Part shown: positions 32,425 through 52,501 of the stretch, in pieces
How positions within the stretch are numbered: the stretch's first letter is position 1
Layout of the letters: each line of letters begins with the position of its first letter
DNA from: Rhodobacteraceae bacterium D3-12
GTDB taxonomy: Bacteria; Pseudomonadota; Alphaproteobacteria; Rhodobacterales; Rhodobacteraceae
Assembly: GCA_025916135.1 (NCBI GenBank)
Contig: CP104793.1
Location: 558,001 to 622,000 of the forward strand
Direction of reading: 5' to 3'
DNA length: 64,000 bases
Translations under genes and position numbers: made by a program
The notes under the pieces: generated by a model
The model's input: the letters and a program-made list of their open reading frames with translations, nothing else
Database searches by the model: none
What the model was told of the DNA's origin: nothing

Positions 32425-32550
32425 ACAGAACATATGTTTCCCTGACATTCTTTGAGTTGCCAAGTCATTCAGTTCATGCAAGAAATTGTTGCAGGGTCAT
32501 TCCTGTTGTTTCCCTGTGTTTCAATTCAATACCTACAAAAAGCTGACAAA

Positions 32551-33624
32551 ATGCCAAAGCTCACAGAGACCTTCGCTCGCAAAGTTCCGCAGACAAAAAC
32601 GGGGACAGACAAGCACTGGGACAGCGAGATTAAAGGGCTAGTTCTGTTCGTCGGCAAACGGTCCAAGACATGGTATTTCCAAAAGGACGTCGGCGGTGTC
32701 ACCAAGCGGGTACTGATCGGCCGTTTTCCTGTAATCTCATCTCAAGCAGCACGCCAAACTGCTTTGGGCCTCGCGTTGGAAATGGGGCGAGGGGCAGGTA
32801 AAATGGCCCAAGCTGGCGCGCCCACCCTCGAGGCTGCCATGGAGGGATATTTGGTTCGGCCGAAGTTGAGATCGGATGCGCATAAATCTACCCTACGTCA
32901 GCAGTTTGACTTGCACTTGAAAGAGTGGCTGCGGCTTCCTCTCGATGAGATATCCAAGAAAATGGTGGTGGAGAAACATCGGTCAATGGCGGATCGCCCA
33001 TCGGCAGCGAACCATACCCTGAAGTATTTCAGAACAGTTTGGAATCATGCCCGACGGGTGCATGATCTTCCAGAACCTCCTACGATTGCGATCGAGTGGT
33101 ATGAAGAGCAGCCAGCCGGGCATATCATCGAGGACCTGAAGAACTGGAGCCGATCTGTCAAAGGTCTGCCTAACCCAATCCATCGTGTTTTCTACGAGTT
33201 ACTATTGTTCACAGGACTCCGCAAAACCGAAGCATTGACCCTTGAATGGAAAAATGTGCACGAAGATCATATCCACTTGCCCGTAACCAAAAACGGCCGC
33301 AGCTTCGACTTGCCGATCCTGCAAGCGCATCACGAGATTCTAGCGCCTATGCGCAATCTAAGCCGCCAATGGGTGTTCCCATCTCCAAAATCAAAGACTG
33401 GCTACATAACCAACCCAGCTTCTATCCCTTGGAGCCCGCACGCGCACCGGCGAACCTTTGCTACCGTGGCGATGGAAGCCGGGATTATGGAGGAGGTTGT
33501 AGGGCGGCTACTTAACCACACGCCGTTGTCGATTACTGGGCGAAGGTACGTAAAGCCTTCTCTTGATGCGCTGCGAGCCCCGATGGAGATTGCGTGTAAA
33601 GAAATAGGCACCAGGATTACGTGA
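32551..33624 (+). CDS. int: Tyrosine recombinase / phage-type integrase
   Basis: A 357-residue site-specific recombinase with all active-site positions: R224 (TGLRKTEA), K247, H297 and R300 (SPHAHRRTF), H323 (RLLNH) and nucleophile Y333 (GRRYVKP). The N-terminal part (KGLVLFVGKRSKTWYFQK) resembles the arm-binding domain of P4-like integrases. The ATG at 32551 matches the family start (MPKLTETFARK); the longer frame from 32452 lies over the attachment region. It directly follows attL and reads into the island. The tRNA promoter of attL points at it and may drive its expression. Confidence 0.92.
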   Translation: MPKLTETFARKVPQTKTGTDKHWDSEIKGLVLFVGKRSKTWYFQKDVGGVTKRVLIGRFPVISSQAARQTALGLALEMGRGAGKMAQAGAPTLEAAMEGYLVRPKLRSDAHKSTLRQQFDLHLKEWLRLPLDEISKKMVVEKHRSMADRPSAANHTLKYFRTVWNHARRVHDLPEPPTIAIEWYEEQPAGHIIEDLKNWSRSVKGLPNPIHRVFYELLLFTGLRKTEALTLEWKNVHEDHIHLPVTKNGRSFDLPILQAHHEILAPMRNLSRQWVFPSPKSKTGYITNPASIPWSPHAHRRTFATVAMEAGIMEEVVGRLLNHTPLSITGRRYVKPSLDALRAPMEIACKEIGTRIT

Positions 33625-35590: not shown

Positions 35591-36499
35591 TTACGAATTT
35601 AAGTCGTGGCTCAATTTCTTTCGCCATGTTTGTTGACCGATTGCGCGGAGGATTTCGACGATGCGAAGATCGACCTCGGATCTGCGCCCGCGGCGGTTCT
35701 GAATTAAGACAAGTTGGCGCACTAGGCTCGGCGTGCAAAACGGTATGGTCGATAGATTTTGCTCTAACGGTGGAGCAAGCAACCTTTGCGGGACGATGGA
35801 TACGCCGTGACCGTAAGCCACAAGCCGTTCCATCGCGTCGAGTGCGTCGAGTTCCATCTCTTCGTGTACGTTGATTCCGCGGGATTGCAGGCGCGCAGCC
35901 ACGCGCTGGCCCAACCAAGCGCGCTTGTTGAAGGCAATGTAGGGCAGGGCGAGAAGGCGTTCGCGGTCGGTTTCGATGTTAGCAAGCGATTTCGGGCCGA
36001 TCACATATGTTGGTTCTTCAGCGATGCTCGTTACTTCTAATTCTTCATGGGCAATCCTTGGCGAGGTAACGAGCGCGAAATCGATTTCGCGGGCGAGCAC
36101 TTTGTTCGCCAATTCACCTGAGAGACCCGACTTGATCAGAAGTTGAATCGAAGGAAAGGCATTGCGGAAATCGGTAAGGAACCTGGGCAGTATTTCCTGC
36201 AGGTTGGTTGGGACGAAACCGATTGAAATCTGTGCGGGAAGCTCTTCGCCACTTGCTGCTATTCTGATTTTTTCAATTTCTGCCAATGCTTTGCGAGCGG
36301 CGTTGGCGACAGCGATTCCCTCTGCAGTGAGCGTTGGAGGGCGACTGCTTCGATCAAACAATTGTGCTCCTAGATGAGCTTCGAGTTCCTTCATCTGAAT
36401 GCTTACAGCTGACGGACTGAGGCCAACGGTGCCGCCTGCAGCGGCAAAGCTTTGTGTCTCTAGAAAAGCGGTAATTGTTCTTAGTTGACGGAGGTTCAT
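35591..36499 (-). CDS. LysR-family regulator, divergent from the sulfinate cluster
   Basis: A 302-residue LysR protein: helix-turn-helix SFAAAGGTVGLSPSAVSIQMKEL in residues 17-40, then an effector-binding domain (ISIGFVPTNLQEILPRF, IDFALVTSPR, GHGVSIVPQRLL). Divergent from the CoA-transferase gene with 106 bp between starts, it is the likely local regulator of the cluster, with a CoA ester, sulfinate or the imported substrate as possible inducer. That role is inferred from position only. Confidence 0.82.
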   Translation of the reverse strand: MNLRQLRTITAFLETQSFAAAGGTVGLSPSAVSIQMKELEAHLGAQLFDRSSRPPTLTAEGIAVANAARKALAEIEKIRIAASGEELPAQISIGFVPTNLQEILPRFLTDFRNAFPSIQLLIKSGLSGELANKVLAREIDFALVTSPRIAHEELEVTSIAEEPTYVIGPKSLANIETDRERLLALPYIAFNKRAWLGQRVAARLQSRGINVHEEMELDALDAMERLVAYGHGVSIVPQRLLAPPLEQNLSTIPFCTPSLVRQLVLIQNRRGRRSEVDLRIVEILRAIGQQTWRKKLSHDLNS

Positions 36500-36605: not shown

Positions 36606-37853
36606 ATGTTCAAATTTACAGACCCACAATCCAAATCGACTGGGCCACTCGCCGGACTTCGTGTGCTTGACTTGTCTCGAATTCTTGCTGGCCCGACCTG
36701 CACTCAATTGCTCGGTGACCTGGGCGCGGACGTAATCAAGATAGAGCGTCCGGGAGTAGGCGATGACACACGTCGCTGGGGCCCGCCGTTCGTAATGGGG
36801 CGTGATGGCAACCCGACAGATCAAAGCGCCTATTTCGTGTCCTCCAACAGGAACAAGCGTTCGGTCGCGCTGGATATCAGCCTGCCGGAAGATGCCGAAG
36901 CCGTGCGTAGAATGACCTGCGATTGCGATATTTTGGTTGAGAACTTCAAGACCGGGGGACTTGAGAAATATGGGCTGGATTATAAAACGCTTTCCCAGCT
37001 CAATCCCGGCTTGATCTACTGTTCGATCACAGGGTTTGGCCAGTCGGGCCCCAATGCTACGCGTCCTGGATATGATCTTTTGGCGCAGGCTTTTGGCGGG
37101 ATCATGAGCCTAACCGGTGAACCGGAGGGCGAGCCAATGAAGGTTGGCGTGGGCGCAGCTGATGTTATGTGCGGCATGTATGCCAGTTCAGCCGTTCTTG
37201 CTGCTTTGCATCACCGGGAGAAAACTGGTGAAGGGCAACATATCGATTTAGCGCTTGTGGATACGCAGGTGGCATGGCTGGTGAATGGGGCAACCAATTA
37301 TCTGGTCTCGGGCGAATTGCCCCAGCGTTTTGGCAACCAACACCCCAATATCGTACCCTACCAAGTTTTCGAAACAAGTGACGGGCATGTCATTGTCGCA
37401 GTTGGTAACGACGCGCAGTTTCAGGCATTCTGTAGGGTGCTTGAATGCCCTGCGCTGGCAGAAGATTCGCGGTTCGTGACCAACGAGGCGCGTCTCGCCA
37501 ATCGTGACGCATTAATCGCGATTATTGCAGCAGAGCTGCGCACGCATTCCAAGTCATGTTTGCTTGGGAAAATGGAAGCTTCCGGTGTTCCAAGCGGCCC
37601 GATCAACCGTCTCGATGAAGTGTTCGCGTCGGAACAGGTTGGGGCGCGGGCAATGAAGATATCCATGCCGAGCAAAGATGCGCTGGAGGGTGAAATCAAC
37701 CTGATTGGCAATCCGATCAAGTTTAGCCGGACACCGGTTACCTACAGGCGCTCGCCACCCACATGCGGTGCAGATACCCAAGAGGTACTGCGCGAATTCG
37801 GGTTGTGGCGCGAAAATAACGCAGAAACGGAAGTTGAAACAAATGATACCTGA
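36606..37853 (+). CDS. Family III CoA-transferase, candidate succinyl-CoA:3-sulfinopropionate CoA-transferase
   Basis: A 415-residue CaiB/BaiF (family III) CoA-transferase with RVLDLSRILAGPTCTQLLGDLGADVIKIE-type N-terminal landmarks and the catalytic aspartate in GVGAADVMCGMYA (D186). These enzymes form an aspartyl-CoA thioester and move CoA between carboxylic acids. The next gene encodes a desulfinase-like acyl-CoA dehydrogenase, and characterised 3-sulfinopropionate degraders use a family III enzyme (Act) to make 3-sulfinopropionyl-CoA, so this is the best guess. The ATG at 36606 fits homologues; others at 36561 and 36498 are in frame. Its end overlaps the next start by 11 bp. Confidence 0.75.
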   Translation: MFKFTDPQSKSTGPLAGLRVLDLSRILAGPTCTQLLGDLGADVIKIERPGVGDDTRRWGPPFVMGRDGNPTDQSAYFVSSNRNKRSVALDISLPEDAEAVRRMTCDCDILVENFKTGGLEKYGLDYKTLSQLNPGLIYCSITGFGQSGPNATRPGYDLLAQAFGGIMSLTGEPEGEPMKVGVGAADVMCGMYASSAVLAALHHREKTGEGQHIDLALVDTQVAWLVNGATNYLVSGELPQRFGNQHPNIVPYQVFETSDGHVIVAVGNDAQFQAFCRVLECPALAEDSRFVTNEARLANRDALIAIIAAELRTHSKSCLLGKMEASGVPSGPINRLDEVFASEQVGARAMKISMPSKDALEGEINLIGNPIKFSRTPVTYRRSPPTCGADTQEVLREFGLWRENNAETEVETNDT

Positions 37854-39066
37854 AAGCCAAGCCATTTTGGATGAGATCGCCGTTGAGGCGCGCGCTTTAG
37901 CGGAAGGGGAGTTTCGCTCGCGGGCGGCCGAAGTTGACGCCACCGAAGCCTATCCGTGGGACAACGTGGCGAAGTTGCGCGATGCCGGCTTTATGGGGAT
38001 GACGATTCCCAAAGAGTACGGTGGACGCGGTCTTTCTTACCTTGCTGCTGTGACAGTCGTTGAGGAGATGGCACGGTGCTGTGCCACGATGGGCCGGATC
38101 ACCGTGGAGGCCAACATGGGTGCGGTTGGCGCCATTATGCAATACGGCAGCGAAAAGCAAAAACAGCTTGCTGCTGATCTCGTTTTGTCCGGCGACAAGC
38201 CTGCAATTTGTATTACGGAACCCGGCGCTGGTAGCGCTGCGACCGAAATGACGACCACTGCTGAGAAAAAAGGTAACACATACGTATTGAACGGCACCAA
38301 ATACTGGATCACAGGCGGGGGTGTTTCGAAGCTGCACCTGATTTTTGCGCGGCTTTTTGAAGATGGCGAATTCAAGGGCATCGCTGGGTTTATCGCGGAA
38401 CGGGGCAAGTCCGAGGGTCTGATCATTGGCGAGCGCGAGCCGGCCATGGGAGTGCGCGGGATTCCAGAAACATACCTTCATTTCAATGACATGAAGGTTC
38501 CTGAAGACATGATCGTAGTGCCGCCAGAAGGCATCAAACGTGGTTTTGCTGGACTAATGCGTGCGTATAACGCGCAACGCGTAGGGGCCGGCACCGTTGC
38601 ACTTGGTATTGCGCAGGGCGCTTTCGACATTGCTGTGGACTATGCGCGAAATCGAGAGCAGTTCGGCCGGCCAATCGCCGAGTTTCAAGGCTTGCAGTGG
38701 ATGATCGCCGACATGTCCATAGGCCTCAAGTCGGCCCGCGCTTTGTTGCGATCCGCTGCAGCAACCCAGGTTGGCGGCTTTCCAGATATTACCGCCGCTG
38801 CGCAAGCCAAAATTCTGGCTTCGGAAACCGCTCAGAAGGTGGTGAACGATGCTCTGCAGATCCACGGTTCAATGGGGTATTCACGCAACCTTCCGTTGGA
38901 ACGCGCTGTGCGCGATGCGCGAATGTTCACCATCGCCGGGGGAACTGCCCAAATTTTACGAACTCAGGTCGCGGCAGCGGTTTTGGGAATCAAGACGCCG
39001 CAAACTCGAGATGGCTACACTCGGCTTTTCAGTAAAGCTGATGGCGTAACAGTGGCAGCCAAATAA
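37843..39066 (+). CDS. acd: Acyl-CoA dehydrogenase-fold 3-sulfinopropionyl-CoA desulfinase (Acd-like)
   Basis: A 407-residue FAD protein of the acyl-CoA dehydrogenase superfamily (ITEPGAGSAATEMTT, YWITGGGVSKLHLIFAR, REQFGRPIAEFQGLQWMIADM). Both usual positions of the catalytic glutamate are changed: IAGGT has Gly366 where MCAD-type enzymes have IYEGT, and YNAQRVG has Gln245 where isovaleryl/long-chain enzymes have Glu. ATMGRITVEAN places Arg85 where the 3-sulfinopropionyl-CoA desulfinase Acd has its sulfino-binding Arg84. That enzyme releases sulfite from 3-sulfinopropionyl-CoA and leaves propionyl-CoA. The overall sequence agrees strongly with my memory of Acd. A dehydrogenase role is less likely. 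Confidence 0.82.
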   Translation: MIPESQAILDEIAVEARALAEGEFRSRAAEVDATEAYPWDNVAKLRDAGFMGMTIPKEYGGRGLSYLAAVTVVEEMARCCATMGRITVEANMGAVGAIMQYGSEKQKQLAADLVLSGDKPAICITEPGAGSAATEMTTTAEKKGNTYVLNGTKYWITGGGVSKLHLIFARLFEDGEFKGIAGFIAERGKSEGLIIGEREPAMGVRGIPETYLHFNDMKVPEDMIVVPPEGIKRGFAGLMRAYNAQRVGAGTVALGIAQGAFDIAVDYARNREQFGRPIAEFQGLQWMIADMSIGLKSARALLRSAAATQVGGFPDITAAAQAKILASETAQKVVNDALQIHGSMGYSRNLPLERAVRDARMFTIAGGTAQILRTQVAAAVLGIKTPQTRDGYTRLFSKADGVTVAAK

Positions 39067-39098: not shown

Positions 39099-40493
39099 AT
39101 GAAGCATTACGAGAACATGGACGGGTTGGTTTTTACGGCTAGTGCCCCCGAAAGTGCGAACCGTTTCTCGGAGTTGAGCTCGGCATACATGGGCTTTCGC
39201 AGGGATACCGGTTCAATCCTTAAAAACATGCTCGCGGAAGACCCCGACATGCCCATGGCACGTTGCGCGCAGGGCTATTTTGCAAAGCTGTTTGGGAGTA
39301 GCAACCAGTCGAGGAAAGCACAGGAAATCAGTGGCGAATTGAACGTTCTTCTTGAGCGTGTGAATGCGACCGATCGAGAACAAAATCATGCTGCTGCTCT
39401 AACGGCGTGGTGCGCGGGTGAATTGGATCAGGCGTCTCAGCTTTGGGAAGAGATATTGCTGGATGATCCTAATGACGGGATGGCGCTTCGACTGGCCCAT
39501 TTTACCCATTTTTATTCGGGTGATCCGCGTCGGATGCGAGATTCTATGGCACGTATCCTTCCGCTCTGGTCGGAAAACCATCGTGACTACGGGTTCCTAC
39601 TGGGGATGTACGCCTTTGGGTTGGAGGAATGCGGTGAGTATGGGAAAGCCGAGAGTTTTGGGCGACAAGCGGTTGAACGCAACCCAGCTGACGCCTGGTC
39701 GGTCCATTCCGTCGCGCATGTATTGGAGATGTCGGAACGCCACGAGGAAGGTATCGGTTGGGTTAAAGGGCTCGAGGAGCATTGGTCGACCGTCAACAAT
39801 TTCCGTTTCCACCTCTACTGGCATCGGAGCCTCTATCATTTGGAGCGAGGCGAGTTCGATACGGTTCTTGCGCTCTACGACGAGCAAATAGTTTCGGATA
39901 TCGACTCGGATTTCTATCTCGACATCTGCAATGCCTCATCGCTCCTTTGGAGGCTCGAGATGTTCGGCGTGGATGTGGGGAGCCGCTGGTCCGATCTTGT
40001 TGCCGTGGCGCGAACCCATGTGAAGGACACGGACCTTATCTTTGTTTCGCTGCATTACCTGATGGCGCTGGTTGCAGGTGGTGACAGGGAAGCCGCGGAA
40101 GAGATGATCGATAACATAGAGAAATGGTCGCAGCTTGGTGATACACAAGCGAAGGTTTGCGCCGAAAGCGGGCTTGCTCTTGCCAAGGGTTTAAGGCTGG
40201 CTCGGGACGGGAAATATGCCGCCGCTGCCGATCATATTGAACCGGTGAAATACGCGCTCGACCGGATCGGCGGAAGCCGGGCACAACGCGATCTCTTCCA
40301 TATGATTTTGCTAGACGTAACCCAATCAAGCCAAGACATGCTCAGGGCTCGTGCGCTCTTTTCAGAGAGACTTGGGCACAAGGTGCACTCTGACTGGACG
40401 TGGCATCACTATGCGAGAATTCAAGAGCAACTGGGCAATCCTCAAGGCGCTCAGGTGGACGCTTGGTTCAAGGCGGGGACGCGAGCGTCCTAA
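39099..40493 (+). CDS. TTC38-like tetratricopeptide repeat protein
   Basis: A 464-residue cytosolic protein built of TPR helices and resembling tetratricopeptide repeat protein 38 (HFTHFYSGDPRRMRDSMARILP, AYGFGLEE-like repeat YAFGLEECGEYGKAESFGRQAV, DAWSVHSVAHVLEM, FHLYWHRSLYHLERGEFD). TTC38 homologues occur in bacterial catabolic clusters but have no settled biochemical role; scaffold or enzyme functions have both been considered. AAAGGA precedes the ATG. It lies 32 bp after acd and is followed within 3 bp by the molybdoenzyme gene, so it belongs to the same transcript. Confidence 0.78.
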   Translation: MKHYENMDGLVFTASAPESANRFSELSSAYMGFRRDTGSILKNMLAEDPDMPMARCAQGYFAKLFGSSNQSRKAQEISGELNVLLERVNATDREQNHAAALTAWCAGELDQASQLWEEILLDDPNDGMALRLAHFTHFYSGDPRRMRDSMARILPLWSENHRDYGFLLGMYAFGLEECGEYGKAESFGRQAVERNPADAWSVHSVAHVLEMSERHEEGIGWVKGLEEHWSTVNNFRFHLYWHRSLYHLERGEFDTVLALYDEQIVSDIDSDFYLDICNASSLLWRLEMFGVDVGSRWSDLVAVARTHVKDTDLIFVSLHYLMALVAGGDREAAEEMIDNIEKWSQLGDTQAKVCAESGLALAKGLRLARDGKYAAAADHIEPVKYALDRIGGSRAQRDLFHMILLDVTQSSQDMLRARALFSERLGHKVHSDWTWHHYARIQEQLGNPQGAQVDAWFKAGTRAS

Positions 40494-40496
40494 TCA

Positions 40497-42863
40497 ATGA
40501 AAATGAACGACACGATGGATCAGAAAACAGAGATGAAGCACCTCGGAGACGAGTTTCGTTCGCACAGTTCTCATTGGGGGGCGTTTCGTGCCCGCTGGGA
40601 CGGTGAGCGCTTGCAAGTCACGCCCCGGGCTGATGATCCTGATCCGTCGTCATTGCTACAGAACATCCCGGATGCGCTGCGTCACAAAGCGAGGATCGCG
40701 AGGCCTGCAATCCGAAAGGGGTGGCTGGAAGGTAAGGGAGCGGGAAGTCGGCGTTCCGGAAATGATTTCATCGAAATGCCGTGGGATGAGGTACTAGACC
40801 TCTTGGCAGAAAAACTTCGCTCTACGCGTGACGAGCATGGACCGGAATCCATTTTTGGTGGGTCATATGGATGGGCTTCTGCAGGGCGTTTCCATCACGC
40901 GCAAAGCCAGGTGCACAGGTTTCTGAACACGGCGATGGGCGGCTACGTTCGCTCGGTCAACAATTATAGCGCTGGCGCGGCGCTGGTTGTTTTGCCGTAT
41001 GTCTTCGGACCTTACGCAGATGTAACTATGCGAAATGTAACCTGGGAACAGGTCGAAGCGCATACAGACATAGTGCTGGCCTTTGGTGGGTTGCCAACCA
41101 AAAACACGTCGGTTGCCAGCGGAGGCATCAGTTCGCATATTGAGCGGCCCAGCATGGTCGCCGCTCATCGCCAAGGCACGCGGTTCGTCTCAGTCAGTCC
41201 AATGCGCGATGATATGATCGACGAGGTCGAGGCTGATTGGTTTGCATCAAGGCCATCAACCGATGTGGCCTTCATGATGGCGCTGGCGCATGTGTTGGTG
41301 TCCGAAGGGCTGCACGATCGCGGTTTTCTGGATCAATACACGTCAGGGTATGACAGGTTCGAAGCCTATCTGATGGGGCGCATTGATGGCGTTGCGAAAA
41401 CACCGGAATGGGCCGCGGAGATCACGGGAATTGATGCAAATCGAATTCGTGCGTTAGCACTTGATTTGCCTAAGAAACGTGTCTTGATCGTGACGGCACA
41501 ATCGCTGCAACGGGCACGGTACGGCGAACAACCGATCTGGATGGCCGCGACCCTTGCGGCAATGTTGGGACAGATTGGTTTGCCTGGCGGTGGTTTCAAC
41601 TACGCGCTTGGATCATTGGCGCACTACGGTCGCCAACAGGGCAGTGCGACGCTGCCTGCATTGCCACAGGGTCAAAACGGCGTAGAGACGTTTATCCCGG
41701 TCGCACGGATCGCGGATATGCTGCTGAATCCAGGTGCCGGATATGATTATAACGGTCAAAAGCTGACCTATCCAAAGATAGAATTGATCTATTGGTTAGG
41801 GGGCAACCCATTTCATCACCACCAAGATATTAACCGTTTGAAGGCGGCGTTTGACCAGGTAGAGACGCTTGTTGTGCACGAATCCGTCTGGACGCCGATG
41901 GCGCGATACGCCGATGTGGTTCTTCCAGCGACGATAACGCTGGAGCGCAACGATCTGGCGTGCGGAAGATCAGACCCCACGATGATTGCGATGCAACAGG
42001 TGGCGCCTCCTTTTGCTCAGGCGCGAGATGACTTTTCGATTTTTGCAGCTCTTTCGCGTCGGCTTGATGTTGAGCAGGCGTTCACCGAGGGACGCAGTGC
42101 GGACGAATGGGTGCGGCATTTTTATGAAAATACGCGCCGACAACTTCTTGAACGAGGCGAAGATGCACCCGACTTCGATAGCTTTTGGAGCAAGGGCGAA
42201 GTTGCGTTGCCACAAGACCCGGACGACGGAGGGATTTTGCGCGCTTTTCGGCAAGATCCCCAAGGATCGCCGCTGCCCACGGAAACTGGCAAGATTGTTG
42301 TGTTCTCTGAGACGATTGCATCATTCGGTTACGACGATTGTCCGGGCCATCCTGTTTGGTTGGAGCCAACGGAGGTGCCGATGACACCTGACATGTTTTA
42401 TCTTGTCGCGAACCAACCAGCGCGTCGGTTGCATAGTCAGCTGGATTTCGGTGCCCATAGCGTCGCTGGTAAGACATCACAACGCGAAACGCTCAGGATG
42501 CATCCTGAAGATGCTGAGAGATTGGGTGTTGGAGACGGCGATATCGTCAAGATTTCTAACCGGCGAGGTGCCTGCCTTGCAGGAGTGGCATTAACCGATG
42601 CAATTCTACAGGGCGTGGTGAATTTGCCGACAGGGGCTTGGTATGACCCTGAATGCCCGAATGGCGAGGCACCGCTTTGTGTCCATGGGAACCCCAACGT
42701 GTTGACCAAAGACATTGGAACCTCACGTTTGTCTCAAGGCTGTACCGGCCAAATAACCTTCGTATTTATCGAGCGTTTCGACGGCCCTCTGCCGCCAGTG
42801 CGCGCATACGACCCGCCTGCTTGTCTGGCAGCGCGGAACACTATGGAAGGACAATGCTCATAA
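40497..42863 (+). CDS. Molybdopterin oxidoreductase, DMSO/TMAO/biotin-sulfoxide reductase type (BisC-like)
   Basis: A 788-residue bis-MGD molybdoenzyme of the DorA/TorA/BisC subgroup. GGSYGWASAGRFHHAQ places Tyr124 and Trp126 where DMSO reductase has its active-site Tyr114/Trp116, and VRSVNNYSAGAA holds Ser158 as the likely Mo ligand (Ser147 in DorA). No iron-sulfur cysteine motif and no Tat signal are present, so it is a cytoplasmic BisC-like enzyme, expected to reduce an S-oxide or N-oxide or to act as a hydroxylase/dehydrogenase. In this cluster the substrate may be a sulfoxide intermediate of the imported compound. It starts three bases after the TPR gene. Confidence 0.8.
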   Translation: MKMNDTMDQKTEMKHLGDEFRSHSSHWGAFRARWDGERLQVTPRADDPDPSSLLQNIPDALRHKARIARPAIRKGWLEGKGAGSRRSGNDFIEMPWDEVLDLLAEKLRSTRDEHGPESIFGGSYGWASAGRFHHAQSQVHRFLNTAMGGYVRSVNNYSAGAALVVLPYVFGPYADVTMRNVTWEQVEAHTDIVLAFGGLPTKNTSVASGGISSHIERPSMVAAHRQGTRFVSVSPMRDDMIDEVEADWFASRPSTDVAFMMALAHVLVSEGLHDRGFLDQYTSGYDRFEAYLMGRIDGVAKTPEWAAEITGIDANRIRALALDLPKKRVLIVTAQSLQRARYGEQPIWMAATLAAMLGQIGLPGGGFNYALGSLAHYGRQQGSATLPALPQGQNGVETFIPVARIADMLLNPGAGYDYNGQKLTYPKIELIYWLGGNPFHHHQDINRLKAAFDQVETLVVHESVWTPMARYADVVLPATITLERNDLACGRSDPTMIAMQQVAPPFAQARDDFSIFAALSRRLDVEQAFTEGRSADEWVRHFYENTRRQLLERGEDAPDFDSFWSKGEVALPQDPDDGGILRAFRQDPQGSPLPTETGKIVVFSETIASFGYDDCPGHPVWLEPTEVPMTPDMFYLVANQPARRLHSQLDFGAHSVAGKTSQRETLRMHPEDAERLGVGDGDIVKISNRRGACLAGVALTDAILQGVVNLPTGAWYDPECPNGEAPLCVHGNPNVLTKDIGTSRLSQGCTGQITFVFIERFDGPLPPVRAYDPPACLAARNTMEGQCS

Positions 42864-43031: not shown

Positions 43032-44084
43032 ATGAAAACCGTTTTCAAGATAGCAAGCAACGCGGCTGTCGTTGGCTTGATGGCACTTGGCGCCCCGATG
43101 GCCCAGGCTCAATCCAAAGAGCCCGCCCCTACAATCAAACAAGTGCAAGAGAGAGGCCATCTGCTTTGTCCCAGTCACGTTGGCACCTACAAAGGTTTTG
43201 CAGAAGTTGACGACAAGGGCGAATGGCAAGGGCTCGATATTGAATTGTGCCGCGCAGTTGCGACCATGATGTTAGGCGACAAGACAAAAGTCGAGCTGGT
43301 GCCACTGAGTTGGGCGCAGCGGTTTCCTGCCCTTCAATCTGGTGATGTCGACATTATCATCAAAGTGACAGGTTGGACGATGTCGCGTGACACCGAACAA
43401 AACCTACAGTTTTCCATGCCTTACTTTGTTGGTGGTACCCAATTTGCTGTTCGTAAAGATCTGGGCATTACCTCGGCCAAGGAATTGAACGGTGCTTCGA
43501 TCTGTGTCGCCGCCGGGACATCGCTTGTCCGGTTCGCGTCCAACTGGCTGGAAGGTCAAGGTCTTGAATTCAAGATGATCCAGTTCGAAAAGGATGAAGA
43601 AGCACAGTCCGCTTACAACGCCGGACGTTGTGACAGCTATATCCAGTGGGGTCCAAACCTGGCTGTGTTTCTCACGAATGCGAAAGGCGGAACCGAAGAA
43701 AACATGGTGTTGCCAGAGCTCGTAGACTTCGGGTTGGCGTCGATCACCATGCGTGAAGGCGAGCAGCAGTTGGTCGACTCGATGAACTGGCTTATCAGCA
43801 TTCTGTTGCAGGCCGAATTCGAAGGGGTGAACTCGCAAAATGTTGACGAAATGCGTGCCAACCCGACAAACCCCACCGTGGCCAAGCTGTTGGGTGTGGA
43901 TCCGGGCCTTGGTGAGCGGTTGGGGCTTAGAGATGATTGGGCCTATGACGTGATCAAACAGGTCGGCAACTATTCCGAGATCTATCACAAAACCATGGGC
44001 GACAAATCTCCCTACAAGCTTCCGCGGGGCTTTAACAACCTGTGGAACAATGGCGGTGTGCTCTACCCACTCACGCTCGACTAA
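43032..44084 (+). CDS. Amino-acid-type ABC transporter substrate-binding protein (AapJ-like)
   Basis: A 350-residue periplasmic binding protein with a signal peptide (cleavage after MAQAQ, about residue 27) and a class II SBP fold: VQERGHLLCPSH, RFPALQSGDVDIIIKVTGWTMSRD, ICVAAGTSLVRFASNWLEGQG. Length and sequence match the general L-amino-acid (Aap/Bzt) family, which binds polar amino acids. Here it is inferred to bring in the zwitterionic or acidic precursor degraded by the cluster. AAGGAGA precedes the ATG. It is followed by a hairpin and the permease genes. Confidence 0.85.
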   Translation: MKTVFKIASNAAVVGLMALGAPMAQAQSKEPAPTIKQVQERGHLLCPSHVGTYKGFAEVDDKGEWQGLDIELCRAVATMMLGDKTKVELVPLSWAQRFPALQSGDVDIIIKVTGWTMSRDTEQNLQFSMPYFVGGTQFAVRKDLGITSAKELNGASICVAAGTSLVRFASNWLEGQGLEFKMIQFEKDEEAQSAYNAGRCDSYIQWGPNLAVFLTNAKGGTEENMVLPELVDFGLASITMREGEQQLVDSMNWLISILLQAEFEGVNSQNVDEMRANPTNPTVAKLLGVDPGLGERLGLRDDWAYDVIKQVGNYSEIYHKTMGDKSPYKLPRGFNNLWNNGGVLYPLTLD

Positions 44085-44100
44085 ATAGCCAACCATAATT

Positions 44101-44125
44101 CCGGGGCCGGCCGAGATGGCCCCGG
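44101..44125 (+). terminator. Intercistronic hairpin after the binding-protein gene
   Basis: CCGGGGCC pairs with GGCCCCGG around a nine-base loop in the gap between the binding-protein and first permease genes. No T tract follows, so partial termination or protection of the upstream mRNA is likely, giving more binding protein than permease. Confidence 0.6.
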
Positions 44126-44151
44126 CGACCCAATCCAGAAAGGTGGACCGC

Positions 44152-45300
44152 ATGAACCGTCGCCTGCGCGATATTCTGTTGCAGATTTCCTTCGTGGGCC
44201 TGCTTCTTGTCCTGATTGTTGGCTTTCTGCTGAATGCCTATTTCAACCTTAAGGAACAAGGCATCACTTCGGGTTTCTATTTCCTCGAACGTCAGATCGG
44301 GTGGGATATGGGGTTCGCCTTTATGCCAACCGCAATCAGCGATCCATATTGGTATGCTTTGCTGCTGGCTCTGATGAACACAGTTGTCATCGGCTATGCT
44401 GCAATAGCATTGGCAACCATTCTGGGAGTTGGTGTTGCCGCGATGAGAATTTCGGGCAGCTCGGTATTGAACACCATCGCTGTGGGCTACATTGAGTTGA
44501 TACGCAACGTGCCGCCGTTGGTCCAGATCCTCGCATGGTACGCAGTGTTCACGGCCTTTCCGCCGCCGCGTCAAGCTTTGGAGTTTCTTGGCGGTGTTCT
44601 GCTCACGGCGCGGGGGCTTCATGTTCCGGCACCAAATGTATCCGGGATGGCCATTGTGCTGTCCTGCTTGGTCGCGCTGATTTGCATCGCCGGGCTGCTC
44701 TGGATCGCGCTCGGGAAGCGTTTCATGTTTCACCAGAGCTTACAAAAACTAAAGATTTCCGCGATCGTGATGGCGGGTTCTTTGGTGCTGATCTGTGCGA
44801 TTATGGCTGTACTGCGATTGCCCGATACGCCCCTGATATCGTATCCCGCGCTCAAAGGGTTCAATATTTCTGGCGGCATTACAATGCCACCTGAGCTTAC
44901 AACCATTTTGGTCGGGGTAACAGTGTTCGGCTCTGCCTTCGCGGCGGAAATTATCAGGGGCGGTTTCCTATCGGTTGATACCTCAAAGCTGGAAGCCGGC
45001 AAGGCGCTGGGTATGACGGGTTGGTCGATCTTTATGAAAATCCGGCTCCCGATCGCAATTCGCAACATCATCCCGATGATGACCAATCTTTATGTCTGGC
45101 TGATCAAGGCGACCGCGCTGGGTGTAGCGGTGGGTTTCGCGGATCTCTTTAACGTTGTGGTGTCAGCCATCGTGCAGTCAGGCCACGTAATCGAGTTTGT
45201 GATCATTCTGGCCGGAGCGTTCTGGGCCGTGAACGCCGGTTTTACCATCCTGATGAACCGCTTTGACCGCAGGCTCCATGCCAAGGAGGCACGTAAATGA
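44152..45300 (+). CDS. Amino-acid ABC transporter permease (AapQ-like)
   Basis: A 382-residue inner-membrane protein with several hydrophobic helices. The HAAP-type permease domain shows the EAA-like loop KLEAGKALGMTGWSIFMKIRLPIAIR near the C terminus. It forms the channel with the next gene. The ATG at 44152 has AAAGGTGG upstream; an in-frame start at 44116 lies closer to the preceding hairpin and is less likely. Its stop overlaps the next start (ATGA). Confidence 0.87.
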   Translation: MNRRLRDILLQISFVGLLLVLIVGFLLNAYFNLKEQGITSGFYFLERQIGWDMGFAFMPTAISDPYWYALLLALMNTVVIGYAAIALATILGVGVAAMRISGSSVLNTIAVGYIELIRNVPPLVQILAWYAVFTAFPPPRQALEFLGGVLLTARGLHVPAPNVSGMAIVLSCLVALICIAGLLWIALGKRFMFHQSLQKLKISAIVMAGSLVLICAIMAVLRLPDTPLISYPALKGFNISGGITMPPELTTILVGVTVFGSAFAAEIIRGGFLSVDTSKLEAGKALGMTGWSIFMKIRLPIAIRNIIPMMTNLYVWLIKATALGVAVGFADLFNVVVSAIVQSGHVIEFVIILAGAFWAVNAGFTILMNRFDRRLHAKEARK

Positions 45301-46400
45301 ACATCTCAACACCATACGTAAAGCGTGACAGCTCTGTGGTGCATAGGCCGAGAAACTTTATGAGCAGGCTCGGCCATTATGCAAACAAGCATCCGGTGAT
45401 TTTTGTTTTTTCGACGCTGCTGTTGCTTGTCATTATCGGGCTCGGAGCTGTTATTCTGGATTGGGCGGTGTTTCGCGGAATATGGTCTGCACCAGATTCC
45501 CAGGCCTGCCGAGCAGAAGGAGTCGGTGCATGCTGGGCTGTCATCGGCGCACGCTGGCGGATCATTTTCTTTGGTCTCTACCCGTTTGATGAACAGTGGC
45601 GTTCGGCGATTGCATGCGCCGTCATGTTGGCCACTGCGATCACATCCTGTTTCCCGCGGTTCTGGACCTTTAAGCGGTTGTCGATCCTCTGGGTGGCTGG
45701 TTATGTCGTATTCTATATCCTCATGGGAGGCGGTGTGTTCGGGTTGAAACCGGTGACCGTGCAGAATTGGGGTGGTTTGGCGCTGACGTTCTTTGTGTTC
45801 GGAACCTGTACAATCCTAACCATGCCGCTCGCTGTTGTGCTCGTCTTGCTTCGGCAGTCATCGCTGTACATGATTTGGAAGCCTACACAGCTGATCATTG
45901 ATTTTGTCCGGTCGATGCCCTTGCTGGTGGTGATGTTCGTAACAGCGGTTATCGTGCCGTTCGGATTGCCCGATGCGCTGATCGGCGAAAAGCTATACCG
46001 GGTTATCCTTGGGTTTGCATTCTACAATGCCTGTTACCAAGCCGAAATCTTGCGCGGTGGCATCCAGAGTTTGCCACAGGGGCAGGACGAAGCCGCCAAG
46101 GCACTGGGTTTGTCCTATCGCCATCGCGTTAGCCGGATCATTCTGCCGCAAGCTTTCAAAATAACCTTGCCGGCAACGATCAATCAAATCGTAATCATCT
46201 TCCTCGAAACGCCATTGATAAGCATCATCGGCTTCTTTGAAGTCCTCGCTTCAGGCGCGGCTGCATTCGGCACTCTGGAATGGGGTGTCGCGGTCGCCGA
46301 AGTATATCTCTTCATTTCGATCGTCTTCTTCATGCTCTCCTTCTCGTTGTCTAGCTACGGCAGATTTCTGGAGAAGCATCTCAGTGTCAACGAAAGGTAA
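45297..46400 (+). CDS. Amino-acid ABC transporter permease (AapM-like)
   Basis: A 367-residue second permease with the EAA-like loop QDEAAKALGLSYRHRVSRIILPQAFKITLP. It has an N-terminal extension with extra hydrophobic segments typical of AapM/BztC. It overlaps the preceding gene by four bases and is followed after three bases by the ATPase gene. Confidence 0.87.
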   Translation: MNISTPYVKRDSSVVHRPRNFMSRLGHYANKHPVIFVFSTLLLLVIIGLGAVILDWAVFRGIWSAPDSQACRAEGVGACWAVIGARWRIIFFGLYPFDEQWRSAIACAVMLATAITSCFPRFWTFKRLSILWVAGYVVFYILMGGGVFGLKPVTVQNWGGLALTFFVFGTCTILTMPLAVVLVLLRQSSLYMIWKPTQLIIDFVRSMPLLVVMFVTAVIVPFGLPDALIGEKLYRVILGFAFYNACYQAEILRGGIQSLPQGQDEAAKALGLSYRHRVSRIILPQAFKITLPATINQIVIIFLETPLISIIGFFEVLASGAAAFGTLEWGVAVAEVYLFISIVFFMLSFSLSSYGRFLEKHLSVNER

Positions 46401-46403
46401 GTC

Positions 46404-47153
46404 ATGGACAATTCAACAGCCAACGCCGTCGCCATATCGGACCTCAACAAATACTACGCCAATTTTCATGCGCTTCATGACATCAATCTCGAAGTAAAGC
46501 AGAAAGAACGGATTGTGATTTGCGGGCCGTCAGGGTCGGGAAAATCCACGCTTATCCGGTGCATCAATCAGCTTGAGGAACATCAAGCCGGTGAAATCCG
46601 CATCTTTGGCGATGAGATCCGTGCTGATCGTCCGGATATCGAAGCACTCCGCCGTCAAACTGGAATGGTCTTTCAGGATTTTAACCTCTTTCCGCATATG
46701 ACCGTTCTGGAAAACTGCATTCTTTCCCCAATTCTGGTTCGCAAAGTGCCGCGCGCAGAAGCCGAGGAAATTGCGCGGGATTATCTGGCGAAAGTCCATG
46801 TGCCGGATCAGGCGGATAAATACCCGACCCAATTGTCGGGGGGGCAACAGCAAAGGGTAGCCATCGCACGAGCACTGTGCATGAGGCCCCAGATCATGCT
46901 GTTCGACGAGCCAACATCGGCACTTGACCCCGAGATGATCTCGGAGGTGCTGGACGTCATGGTCGAATTGGCGGGAACCGGTATGACCATGATCTGTGTC
47001 ACCCATGAAATGGGCTTTGCCCGTAAGGTTGCTGACCGGGTGATCTTCATGGATGCGGGCAGGATAGTCGAACAGAACGAGCCGGAACAGTTCTTTAACA
47101 ATCCGCAAAGCCCAAGAGCCAAACAATTTCTGGAACAGGTTTTGAGCCACTAA
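46404..47153 (+). CDS. Amino-acid ABC transporter ATP-binding protein (AapP-like)
   Basis: A 249-residue cytoplasmic ATPase: Walker [14 protein letters not shown] (about residues 39-51), Q-loop [11 protein letters not shown], signature [15 protein letters not shown], Walker [15 protein letters not shown] and switch His in [10 protein letters not shown]. It matches the polar amino acid transporter ATPase family (GlnQ/AapP) and completes the importer. Confidence 0.93.
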
Positions 47154-47192: not shown

Positions 47193-48833
47193 ATGGCCAA
47201 CGAAAGCCCAAACACACACATGCAAGTTGATGCCGTGATCGTCGGAGCCGGAATTGCGGGAATGTATGCCATACACCGACTAACTCAGATGGGATTGTCT
47301 GTCTGTGCTTTTGAGCGTGGGGATGGTGTCGGTGGAACGTGGTACTGGAACCGTTATCCAGGTGCGCGGTGTGATGTTGAAAGTCTGGAGTATTGTTACT
47401 CGTTTTCGGAAGAACTGGTGCAAGAATGGTCATGGAAAGACCGTTATGCCGACCAGTCAGAAATCCTCTCCTATCTTGACCATGTGGCAGACCGGTTCGA
47501 CCTGCGGCGCCATATACAGTTTGAAACCGAGATTGAGAGCGCGGTCTACAATGACGAAACTGCCTTGTGGACTTTGACGACCAATCAAGGAACGAGTGTT
47601 TCAGCCAGATACTGCGTCATGGCGACTGGGAACCTCTCAAAGCCGCAGTTTCCCGCCGTACCGGGCTTGGAGCGGTTCAAGGGCGCTCTTCATCACACGG
47701 GTGCCTGGCCAAAGGACGGTTTGGATTTTACCGGCAAGCGAGTGGTTCAAATCGGTACGGGTGCGACGGGAATTCAGGTTGCACCGCGGATCGCCCCGCA
47801 AGCTGAGGCGTTGATTGTGTTGCAACGTACTGCCAACTTCTCGATCCCGGCTGGCCAGCGCCCGTTACCTGACGAAGCTCAACAAGAGTTTAGGGCGAGT
47901 TTTCCGGTAAAGCTCGATCTGGCGCTGAACGCGGCTTCGGGGATGGCCTATGTACCGGTTCCCGAGCAGTCGGCTTTGGACGTTACGGAAGAAGAGCGGA
48001 ACCGGATTTACGAAGAGCGGTGGCAGAACGGTGGCAGTTTCGCTTTTTCATCTTCGTTCAACGATATTCTCACGGACTTTGAAGCCAACCAAACGGCTGC
48101 CAATTTCGTGCGCGGCAAGATACGTAGTATCGTAAAGGACCCGGAAACCGCCGAGGCGCTATGCCCAAAGGACCACCCCTATGCCACCAAGCGTGTTTGT
48201 GTGGATAGCGGGTATTATGCCACATTTAACCGAGACAACGTGACGCTGGTCGATTTGAATGTCGAAAAGTTGCTTGAGTTTACCGAGAATGGTTTTCGGA
48301 CTTCAAAAAAGGAATATGAGGTTGATGCAGCCGTCTTTGCAACGGGATTCGATGCAATCACAGGCGCTGTTCTCGAGATGGATGTGCGGGGGAAAGGCGG
48401 ACTTAGCCTCAGGGATGCTTGGAATGATGCGCCCACTGCTTACTTGGGTCTACAGGCGGCCGGATTTCCCAATCTTTTCTTTGTCACCGGTCCAGGAAGC
48501 CCATCGGTCAAGGCGAATATGTTCAAGGCAATTGAACAACATGTGGATTGGATTGCTGACTGCATTCGTGACATGCGCGAACAGGGTATCGTTTCGATAG
48601 AAGCGGATGCGTCGGCCGAGGCAGAATGGGTCGCCCATGTGAAGGATTTGGCAGATTCCACGTTGTATCCGCTTGCCAAGTCTTGGTGGACCGGTGCCAA
48701 CGTGCCGGGGAAACCGCGCCACTTCATGATCTATATCGGGGGTTTTTCCACCTATCGGCAACTGTGTTTCGACGTCGCCGAGAATGGATATAAGGGGTTT
48801 CATCTCGAAAAAGAACCAGAGGTTTGCACCTGA
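47193..48833 (+). CDS. Type I Baeyer-Villiger / flavin-containing monooxygenase
   Basis: A 546-residue flavoprotein. It has an N-terminal FAD motif VIVGAGIAGMY, the GVGGTWYWNRYPGARCD segment typical of cyclohexanone-monooxygenase-like enzymes, the Baeyer-Villiger fingerprint FKGALHHTGAWP (residues 162-173, FxGxxxHxxxWP), and an NADPH Rossmann motif GTGATG (188-193). Such enzymes insert one oxygen atom into ketones or oxidise sulfur and nitrogen. Within this cluster sulfoxidation or oxygen-dependent C-S/C-C cleavage of the imported compound is plausible but unproven. AAGGAGA precedes the ATG. Confidence 0.85.
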   Translation: MANESPNTHMQVDAVIVGAGIAGMYAIHRLTQMGLSVCAFERGDGVGGTWYWNRYPGARCDVESLEYCYSFSEELVQEWSWKDRYADQSEILSYLDHVADRFDLRRHIQFETEIESAVYNDETALWTLTTNQGTSVSARYCVMATGNLSKPQFPAVPGLERFKGALHHTGAWPKDGLDFTGKRVVQIGTGATGIQVAPRIAPQAEALIVLQRTANFSIPAGQRPLPDEAQQEFRASFPVKLDLALNAASGMAYVPVPEQSALDVTEEERNRIYEERWQNGGSFAFSSSFNDILTDFEANQTAANFVRGKIRSIVKDPETAEALCPKDHPYATKRVCVDSGYYATFNRDNVTLVDLNVEKLLEFTENGFRTSKKEYEVDAAVFATGFDAITGAVLEMDVRGKGGLSLRDAWNDAPTAYLGLQAAGFPNLFFVTGPGSPSVKANMFKAIEQHVDWIADCIRDMREQGIVSIEADASAEAEWVAHVKDLADSTLYPLAKSWWTGANVPGKPRHFMIYIGGFSTYRQLCFDVAENGYKGFHLEKEPEVCT

Positions 48834-48873: not shown

Positions 48874-49605
48874 ATGGAACCAGTGCAACCTTTGGCCGTG
48901 ATCGTCGGCGGAGCCAATGGGATTGGTGCCGCCACCGCAACAGAGCTTGCAGCCCAAGGAATGAAGCCCATCCTATGCGATTTGGATGGTGAGCAAGCTT
49001 CTCTTGTGGCGGCGCAACTTGGCGGGCATGGGTTCACTCTTGATGTGACAGATCGGTCCGCATGTTTTGCGGTGGCCGAAGAGATATTCGCGCGGTTTGG
49101 CGCCGCATCTGTTCTTGTCAATTCCGCCGGTGTCGCACGGGTCGCGGCGATTGAGGATCAAGGTTCACCGGCTGCTTGGGATTCAAGTCTGGATGTGAAC
49201 CTGACTGGTAACTTCAACATGGTTCACAGCTTGCTTTCACAGCTTCGGGAAACCGCAGGTGTGATCGTCAACGTTGCCTCTGTCATGGCGCAGCGCAGCA
49301 GCGCGATGACACATGTTGGTTATAGCGCTTCGAAAGGTGGGGTATGTGCTCTTACGCGGGCGCTTTGCCGACAGCTTGCCGAAGATGGTATCCGTGTTAA
49401 TGCGGTTGCTCCCGGGTTCATTGAAACACCGATGCTTGCAGCCAATATGACCGATTTCGGCCCTCTGCTCGAGCAGCACGTTCCAATGAAGCGGCTAGGC
49501 CGCCCGGAGGAGGTTGCGAAAGTGATCGCTTTCCTCTGCTCCGACGCGGCCAGTTTTGTTTCAGGTGCGATCGTCCCAGTGGATGGAGGCTACCTTGTCG
49601 TCTGA
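48874..49605 (+). CDS. Short-chain dehydrogenase/reductase (plus strand)
   Basis: A 243-residue SDR: GGANGIGAATA cofactor motif (residues 11-21), NSAGVARVA, catalytic Ser/Tyr/Lys in the VASVMAQRS and YSASKGG regions, and FLCSDAASFVSGAIVPVDGGY at the C terminus. It follows the monooxygenase gene on the same strand with a short hairpin between (TCCCG/CGGGA near 48834). Likely oxidises or reduces a hydroxy/keto intermediate; substrate unknown. Confidence 0.85.
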   Translation: MEPVQPLAVIVGGANGIGAATATELAAQGMKPILCDLDGEQASLVAAQLGGHGFTLDVTDRSACFAVAEEIFARFGAASVLVNSAGVARVAAIEDQGSPAAWDSSLDVNLTGNFNMVHSLLSQLRETAGVIVNVASVMAQRSSAMTHVGYSASKGGVCALTRALCRQLAEDGIRVNAVAPGFIETPMLAANMTDFGPLLEQHVPMKRLGRPEEVAKVIAFLCSDAASFVSGAIVPVDGGYLVV

Positions 49606-51436: not shown

Positions 51437-52501
51437 TTAAGGCACTAAAAGCGCGATCATTCCTAATCCCAACCCAATCAAAAGCGCTAGAGATAACAGA
51501 ACCGTTGCGATTACCCGCGTTCCGGCGTTCAATACCGAGCGTGCATCCACGTTCAACCCAAAGGCCGCCATTGCAATAATGGTCAACACAGTTGCACCCA
51601 TCGATATTATGGGGAGGATTCCTTGCGGAATGGCGTCGATGGATCTCAACCCGATCATTCCAAGAAAGCCAAAGATGAAGAGTGGTGGCACAAAACCATG
51701 CTTTCTAGTGCTCGACGTTCCAACGGACCGACCTTCGTCAGGCAAGCGGGAGGCGAGTATAGCCAACACAGTCGTTATCGGCCCCAGCATAAGCACGCGA
51801 ACGAGCTTCACGAGCGTTCCAATCTGCACCGCAGCCGCCCCCATAGGGGCCGCAGCGGCAAGGACTTGGGGCACGGCATAAACTGTCATTCCGGACAGGA
51901 CACCGTATTGCAGCGCTTGCAGCTCCGCGAGATGTCCAATCAGAGGTAAACCCAATACGACGAACACGCCAAGCACAGCAGTGAAGGTTATCGAGGCGCT
52001 GATGTCGTCGCTATTTGCATTGATTACCGGGGCAACGGCTGCAATGGCAGAGTTGCCGCAAATCCCGTTTCCGCAAGCAATCAGCAACGCCATTCGTGCC
52101 GGCAAGCCCATCAATCGACCTAGAAAATATGACCCAGGCACAACCAGAATCACGATCGCAACGATGCCAGTAAGCAGCGTCGGCTCTACGGCCATCAAGG
52201 TCTGAGCGCTTACAGCGGCGCCAAGCAGAACTATTGCAATCTCTAGCAGCACTTTTGACGAAAACGCTATACCAGCAAGGAAGCGCTTATGCGGTTGCCT
52301 GAGCGTTCGAAAGACAGCGCCGATCAGTATCGCTAGAACCAATGGCTCCAACCATATCGCGCCAAAGATCGCTTTCTCTATTTCTGCGGCAAGTACCGCC
52401 AGCAGCCCGATGGCCGCGCTCAGCACAAACCCTGGTAGGATCTCGAAAGCACGCATTCGCCTACAGCGTGTTGCTGAGAGTAAGTTAGAAGCGAGAGGCA
52501 T
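51437..52501 (-). CDS. YeiH/UPF0324-family putative sulfate/sulfite exporter
   Basis: A 354-residue protein with about ten hydrophobic segments and the family landmarks LEPLVLAILIGAVFRT, ACGNGICGNSAIAAVAPVI and VLTIIAMAAFGLNVDARSV. YeiH-type proteins are placed among putative sulfate exporters and are switched on by a LysR protein of the YeiE type during sulfite stress. The gene is divergent from a YeiE-like LysR gene. Next to a desulfinase that frees sulfite, export of sulfite or sulfate is a natural role. ATG 52501 has AAGGGA upstream; ATG 52456 is an alternative. Confidence 0.78.
   Translation of the reverse strand: MPLASNLLSATRCRRMRAFEILPGFVLSAAIGLLAVLAAEIEKAIFGAIWLEPLVLAILIGAVFRTLRQPHKRFLAGIAFSSKVLLEIAIVLLGAAVSAQTLMAVEPTLLTGIVAIVILVVPGSYFLGRLMGLPARMALLIACGNGICGNSAIAAVAPVINANSDDISASITFTAVLGVFVVLGLPLIGHLAELQALQYGVLSGMTVYAVPQVLAAAAPMGAAAVQIGTLVKLVRVLMLGPITTVLAILASRLPDEGRSVGTSSTRKHGFVPPLFIFGFLGMIGLRSIDAIPQGILPIISMGATVLTIIAMAAFGLNVDARSVLNAGTRVIATVLLSLALLIGLGLGMIALLVP

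Follow-up and report, generated by a model that had tools for sequence, protein, structure and literature searches.

The gene located at positions 37843..39066 (+) of the window, that is, of the whole 64-kb stretch of DNA analysed here, very probably encodes a 3-sulfinopropionyl-CoA desulfinase (Acd), an activity that we infer from sequence comparisons. This enzyme has already been described, and the window protein extends a known family. Its frame runs from an ATG to a stop codon without interruption and encodes 407 aa, while the first frame of the reverse strand contains stops; ORFs of 103 to 194 aa located on that strand within the gene were assumed to be spurious. Two ORF clusters considered as neighbour genes (C6 and C12) were discarded, their coordinates being those of minus-strand frames overlying desulfinase genes.

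The identification draws on an equivalog model, on identity to 5af7, on a tree and on a structure model. The protein passes the cut-off of NF042439, the NCBI equivalog for 3-sulfinopropanoyl-CoA desulfinase (653.6 bits vs a cut-off of 600), and the 22 other models among the matches listed for it are all under their own cut-offs. Its closest solved relative is 5af7/5ahs (E 1.6e-166; next best E 1.6e-73). The predicted model of the window protein (mean pLDDT of 89.1, residues 392-407 being below 50) best matches 5ahs and 5af7 (Foldseek ranks 1-3; TM 0.92/0.96, rmsd 1.9) and has, according to Foldseek, an acyl-CoA dehydrogenase fold like that of 5af7. A tree of 36 rows was built from alignment A2 (28 rows: the window copy plus 27 sequences from the 80 loci described below), 5af7 and seven paralogues from the window's own genome. 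In this tree, a 100/99 branch splits the 29 desulfinases (5af7 included) from the 7 paralogues, whose branches are very long; the program cautions that long branches can be joined falsely. Together with the CoA-transferase and LysR neighbours, this orthologue-level match supports the preliminary description, according to which the protein would be suited to desulfination.

The same desulfinase chemistry could in principle act on another beta-sulfino acyl-CoA as the true substrate. Neighbours unlike those of characterised clusters (BisC-like protein, amino-acid ABC transporter, flavin monooxygenase) and a genome devoid of any match to the thiol dioxygenase model PF05995 would fit with such a substrate. 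However, the window protein keeps every residue that separates the 29 desulfinases from the 7 paralogues and is 67% identical to the characterised enzyme, and we consider this alternative improbable.

The assignment as a 3-sulfinopropionyl-CoA desulfinase also agrees with three residues that had been singled out beforehand: Arg85 (codon 38095..38097, +), proposed at the position of Arg84 of the known desulfinase, and Gln245 (38575..38577, +) and Gly366 (38938..38940, +), proposed to replace the catalytic bases of isovaleryl-CoA dehydrogenase and of the medium-chain dehydrogenase, respectively (codon places obtained by arithmetic from 37843). The corresponding motifs (ATMGRITVE, AYNAQRVG and MFTIAGGTAQ) are all present. 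Alignment to the Acd of Advenella mimigardefordensis (5af7; 67% identity over 384 columns) bears out the three proposals, R85 pairing with R84, Q245 with Q246 and G366 with G366. Furthermore, this R/Q/G triad is found in 85/85 desulfinase-like sequences showing at least 55% identity, i.e. the window copy, the best 80 of 201 confirmed loci and 4 further loci. Eleven other acyl-CoA dehydrogenases (the 7 own-genome paralogues and 4 proteins from other loci) served as controls. None of them has Arg at 85 or Gln at 245; column 245 is Glu in 5/11, and column 366 is Glu in 5/11, Gly in 3/11 and without a letter in one row. As each of these columns is Glu in five controls, the controls do reveal the two known base positions. 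On the other hand, G366 alone says little, because Gly is also found there in 3/11 controls.

The window protein has an acidic residue at neither catalytic base position, and hence shows the Glu of oxidising acyl-CoA dehydrogenases neither at the MCAD-type nor at the IVD-type position. Another conserved Glu acting as base, which would have told against the preliminary description, was sought among the clade-specific columns: none of the columns invariant in the 29 desulfinases and absent from the 7 paralogues holds Glu or Asp. Column 132 is Ala in the window protein and Asp in 7/7 paralogues; column 370 is Gln in the window protein and the Glu of the usual motif in 6/7 paralogues. E209 is invariant in the 28 desulfinase rows, yet lies outside the clade-specific list of the 29 vs 7 comparison. 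Schurmann et al. reportedly noted in 2015 that both bases are missing in the Advenella enzyme and described the key Arg; this enzyme is said to be without dehydrogenase activity, and its Arg84Lys variant to be inactive. According to the accessible text of a later article, the desulfinase catalyses no redox reaction, the sulfino group being eliminated as sulfite (PMC8360864, citing Schurmann et al. 2015). The same text indicates that the C-terminal Glu is also missing in isovaleryl-, carnitine-, pimeloyl- and benzylmalonyl-type enzymes, the motif at the base site being AGG in sulfinopropionyl-CoA desulfinase, GAG in the isovaleryl, SGG in the carnitine-type and YGG in the pimeloyl-type enzymes (PMC8360864). 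The absence of this Glu is by itself no diagnostic sign of a desulfinase. It is nevertheless hardly credible that the window protein is an ordinary acyl-CoA dehydrogenase with an unrecognised base: although the oxidising isovaleryl-CoA and benzylmalonyl-CoA dehydrogenases do without the C-terminal Glu (PMC8360864, accessible text), the clade-specific columns offer no acidic residue, Gln370 and Ala132 stand in place of the usual motif Glu and the usual Asp, and the nearest solved homologue is titled desulfinase.

The desulfinase gene is preceded by a gene encoding a class III CoA-transferase (36606..37853, +; PF02515, 437.3 bits), probably devoted to the activation of 3-sulfinopropionate. Its end overlaps the start of the desulfinase gene by 11 bases and its likely start is the ATG at 36606. 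The protein stays under the cut-off of each of the 7 NCBIfam models that it matched, so that its substrate is not fixed by its sequence, a point against the main reading. This transferase would move CoA from succinyl-CoA to 3-sulfinopropionate. The resulting thioester would be bound by the desulfinase within the acyl-CoA dehydrogenase fold, where Arg85, by analogy with the Advenella enzyme, would hold the sulfino group. As in that enzyme, cleavage of the C-S bond would yield propionyl-CoA and sulfite, with no net oxidation because a carboxylate is absent from both base positions. Propionyl-CoA would enter metabolism via an acyl-CoA mutase of the methylmalonyl-CoA mutase type, the substrate of each such mutase being presumptive. 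Three matches to TIGR00641 (methylmalonyl-CoA mutase-type acyl-CoA mutases) are above cut-off in the window's genome, and propionyl-CoA is therefore probably usable. One acyl-CoA mutase match of this genome (G000:C1:1695164-1696727) is in two stretches with a few-base overlap, a possible assembly frameshift. Sulfite would be either oxidised or exported. A YeiH-type putative sulfate/sulfite exporter is encoded at 51437..52501 (-; PF03601, 210.8 bits; TIGR00698, 131.5 bits, below the cut-off of 232.6) and possibly belongs to the same function as the desulfinase.

A LysR-type regulator is encoded divergently upstream (35591..36499, -; PF00126 and PF03466). Downstream of the desulfinase gene and on the same strand are genes encoding a TPR protein that recurs as a neighbour of Acd (39099..40493; TPR models), a molybdopterin S/N-oxide reductase-like protein of the BisC family (40497..42863; PF00384; TIGR00509, 903.9 bits, below the cut-off of 1017.55) and an amino-acid-type ABC transporter (43032..47153; PF00497 and PF00528). 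The latter comprises a binding protein (43032-44084), two permeases (44116-45300 and 45297-46400) and an ATPase (46404-47153). They are followed by genes for a flavin monooxygenase (47193..48833, +; PF00743), whose motif FKGALHHTGAWPKD we take to be of Baeyer-Villiger type, and for a short-chain dehydrogenase (48874..49605, +; PF13561). No exact match to a promoter consensus was found within the 64-kb window.

Neighbours were counted by ORF clusters around the best 80 of the 201 confirmed loci, whose flanks are unequal and many of whose contigs are short. A homologue from the cluster of the window's CoA-transferase lies within 1 kb of the desulfinase gene in 38/80 loci, a LysR gene in 10/80, a TPR protein in 10/80 and a TPP enzyme in 18/80. 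This TPP-dependent, acetolactate-synthase-like enzyme (found at L076:11170-12762 and in 17 further loci) is a possible decarboxylase for a 2-oxo-4-sulfino acid; the three copies scanned are under the cut-off of every NCBIfam model among the matches listed.

Relatives of the TPR protein at 65-70% adjoin the desulfinase in one locus (L103) and the CoA-transferase in another (L102), and are on a separate contig in a third (L101). In a sample of 295 genomes drawn from the family to which the window belongs, TPR homologues (E 1e-30) are found in 15/25 genomes with the desulfinase vs 74/270 without it (p 0.0013, kinship ignored), and they lie away from the desulfinase in most of these 25 genomes. 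The predicted model of the TPR protein is nearly all helical (mean pLDDT of 90.6) and has generic TPR matches only, with a TM to query of at most 0.50 among the 50 matches listed. Alignment of 11 rows gives 47 invariant columns, six of which are His (His97, His203, His207, His238, His242 and His319 of the protein encoded at 39099-40493). With such conservation, the TPR protein could have a role beyond that of a scaffold, and it is possibly an enzyme or a metal binder. It presumably resembles human TTC38, and the accessible TTC38 literature, followed as a lead, yielded no function for the TPR protein.

A BisC homologue with 43-46% identity is present within the fetched flanks of 6/80 loci (L038, L042, L056, L058, L061 and L065), where L038/L042 and L058/L061 are close pairs and the L056 copy is cut by the locus end; three BisC-like proteins at 23-24% (L072, L079 and L081) were excluded from this count. 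A rough chance estimate gives 0.16 expected, applying the gene frequency of the family sample to all loci and assuming 4 Mb genomes and full flanks, with kinship ignored. In the family sample, BisC is found in 11/25 genomes with the desulfinase vs 83/270 without it (p 0.18), and the second-closest BisC relative (56%) lies far from the desulfinase within its genome (G118). The BisC-like protein was therefore rejected as a general partner of the desulfinase, their link not being established. Accessible literature on biotin sulfoxide reductase together with the desulfinase concerned E. coli dead-end metabolites alone. Homologues of the flavin monooxygenase were found at E 1e-10 in 0/80 loci; in the family sample, they occur in 3/25 genomes with the desulfinase vs 10/270 without it (p 0.09). 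One contig of 60.6 kb (G241, C13) carries, dispersed across about 40 kb, two desulfinase copies, a TPR homologue and a relative of the window's flavin monooxygenase.

This context outweighs the enzyme itself in interest, the main question being the origin of 3-sulfinopropionate. In Variovorax and Advenella, the pathway is fed by a 3-mercaptopropionate dioxygenase, according to the accessible texts (PMC6370202, PMC5373536). The window's genome gives 0 matches to the thiol dioxygenase model PF05995, and thus no CDO-like 3-mercaptopropionate dioxygenase, as expected for the DTDP/TDP-type 3-mercaptopropionate pathway, was detected by this model. This tells against the main reading, and the supply of 3-sulfinopropionate may consequently differ there. 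Among 51 desulfinase genomes (the window's own and 50 of the genomes to which the best 80 loci belong), 21 have PF05995 matches, 20 of them above cut-off, and 30, including the window's genome, have none. Among 14 control genomes, only Bacillus subtilis gave a match. The model is not blind to such dioxygenases, since it picks them up in three desulfinase loci (L031, L054 and L058; 30-36 bits). Twelve records titled Rhodobacteraceae, Paracoccaceae or genera placed there (L010, L019, L021, L030, L056, L063, L065, L071, L076, L080, L082 and L084) gave 0/12 matches, several being incomplete assemblies; tree labels confirm Marimonas, Oceaniglobus and Zongyanglinia, and we assume that the remaining genera belong to these families. 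The other thiol dioxygenase family, PF07847, gave nothing in the window's genome, which shows nothing because the controls were blank too. 3-Mercaptopropionate also arises from dimethylsulfoniopropionate; this other natural route offers some source of the substrate and tells against the shunt reading presented below.

Several related clusters may point to a different supply. Six loci (L056, L062, L065, L067, L082 and L084) encode a class III aminotransferase on the far side of the TPR gene, at a distance of 1.3 to 2.4 kb from the desulfinase, and all six proteins are above the cut-off of the 4-aminobutyrate transaminase (GabT) model, the matches being assigned to these loci through contig ranges. 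A seventh class III aminotransferase near the desulfinase (L071) was outside the GabT scan. PF05995 has a match in 0/6 genomes of the GabT-bearing clusters. Three of these loci (L062, L082 and L084) continue past the transaminase gene with a succinate-semialdehyde-dehydrogenase-like gene and have, between the TPR and transaminase genes, a gene for a YeiH-type carrier, a 26-30% relative of the window's carrier; the L082 dehydrogenase, the only one of the three copies scanned, is above its model cut-off. In vitro, 4-aminobutyrate transaminase and succinate-semialdehyde dehydrogenase convert homohypotaurine into 3-sulfinopropionate, and E. coli GadB converts homocysteine sulfinic acid into homohypotaurine with an efficiency 116 times below that for glutamate (PMC11396700, accessible text). 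A link between this homohypotaurine route and the desulfinase was not found in the open-access literature covered, most subscription papers lying outside this scope.

We tentatively propose, as a rather unlikely reading, that in marine Rhodobacterales-like bacteria the desulfinase completes a sulfino version of the GABA shunt instead of serving xenobiotic thioether use. Homocysteine sulfinate would be decarboxylated to homohypotaurine, which the GabT-type transaminase and the succinate-semialdehyde dehydrogenase of the cluster would convert into 3-sulfinopropionate. The CoA-transferase and the desulfinase would then free sulfite, exported by the YeiH-type carrier. On this reading, the operon of the window would share the conserved TPR protein but represent a variant fed from elsewhere (amino-acid ABC transporter together with BisC-like and flavin enzymes). 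Direct application of this shunt to the window was rejected: it is not simply transferable, because no GabT above cut-off was found in the window's own genome. Furthermore, the cluster GabT is the sole copy above cut-off in its genome for L067, L082 and L084 (3/6), so that plain GABA catabolism may be its role in these three. With the GABA transaminase of the six related clusters, one natural origin of the substrate becomes open to direct testing.

The desulfinase (E 1e-130 or better) is found in 25/295 genomes of the same family, its own included; the one same-genus genome searched gave no match at E 1e-150. The G+C content is 0.51-0.56 from about 31 to 53 kb of the window and 0.57-0.61 from 53 to 62 kb, and it also drops to 0.50 in the left flank, at 24-26 kb. 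The region 31000-53000 may be a gained segment or genomic island. Repeats of at least 25 bases in 31500-54000 amount to one two-copy family, whose copies lie where two enzymes have their Rossmann starts, and reveal no island ends. An integrase-like frame was noted by eye at 32452-33624. In a record titled Mesoflavibacter (Bacteroidota; L066), the desulfinase falls among those of Paracoccaceae and Devosiaceae in the tree, which reflects either a transfer or a mislabelled assembly.

Human short-chain acyl-CoA dehydrogenase (7y0a, 8sgs) has a similar overall fold (rmsd of 2.5 to 3.1 to the window model), but the alignments show that it is without the Arg and the Gln and keeps the C-terminal motif Glu. 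In Variovorax paradoxus TBEA6, from which act and acdA were published, the class III CoA-transferase gene adjoins the desulfinase gene as in the window; that cluster includes mdo and enoyl-CoA hydratases, whereas TPR, BisC-like, ABC transporter and flavin monooxygenase genes lie downstream in the window (PMC6370202, accessible text). The Advenella cluster, as far as the accessible text goes, consists of lysR, a class III transferase gene, acd and mdo, and the pathway was established in the literature with compounds that include the xenobiotic DTDP (PMC5373536). An mdo-type dioxygenase was not detected in the window's genome and the downstream genes differ, but the class III CoA-transferase and LysR genes are common to both clusters. 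AcdDPN7 of A. mimigardefordensis (PDB 5af7, 5ahs) shares its fold with the window protein, in which Arg84, Gln246 and Gly366 all have their counterparts at 67% identity.
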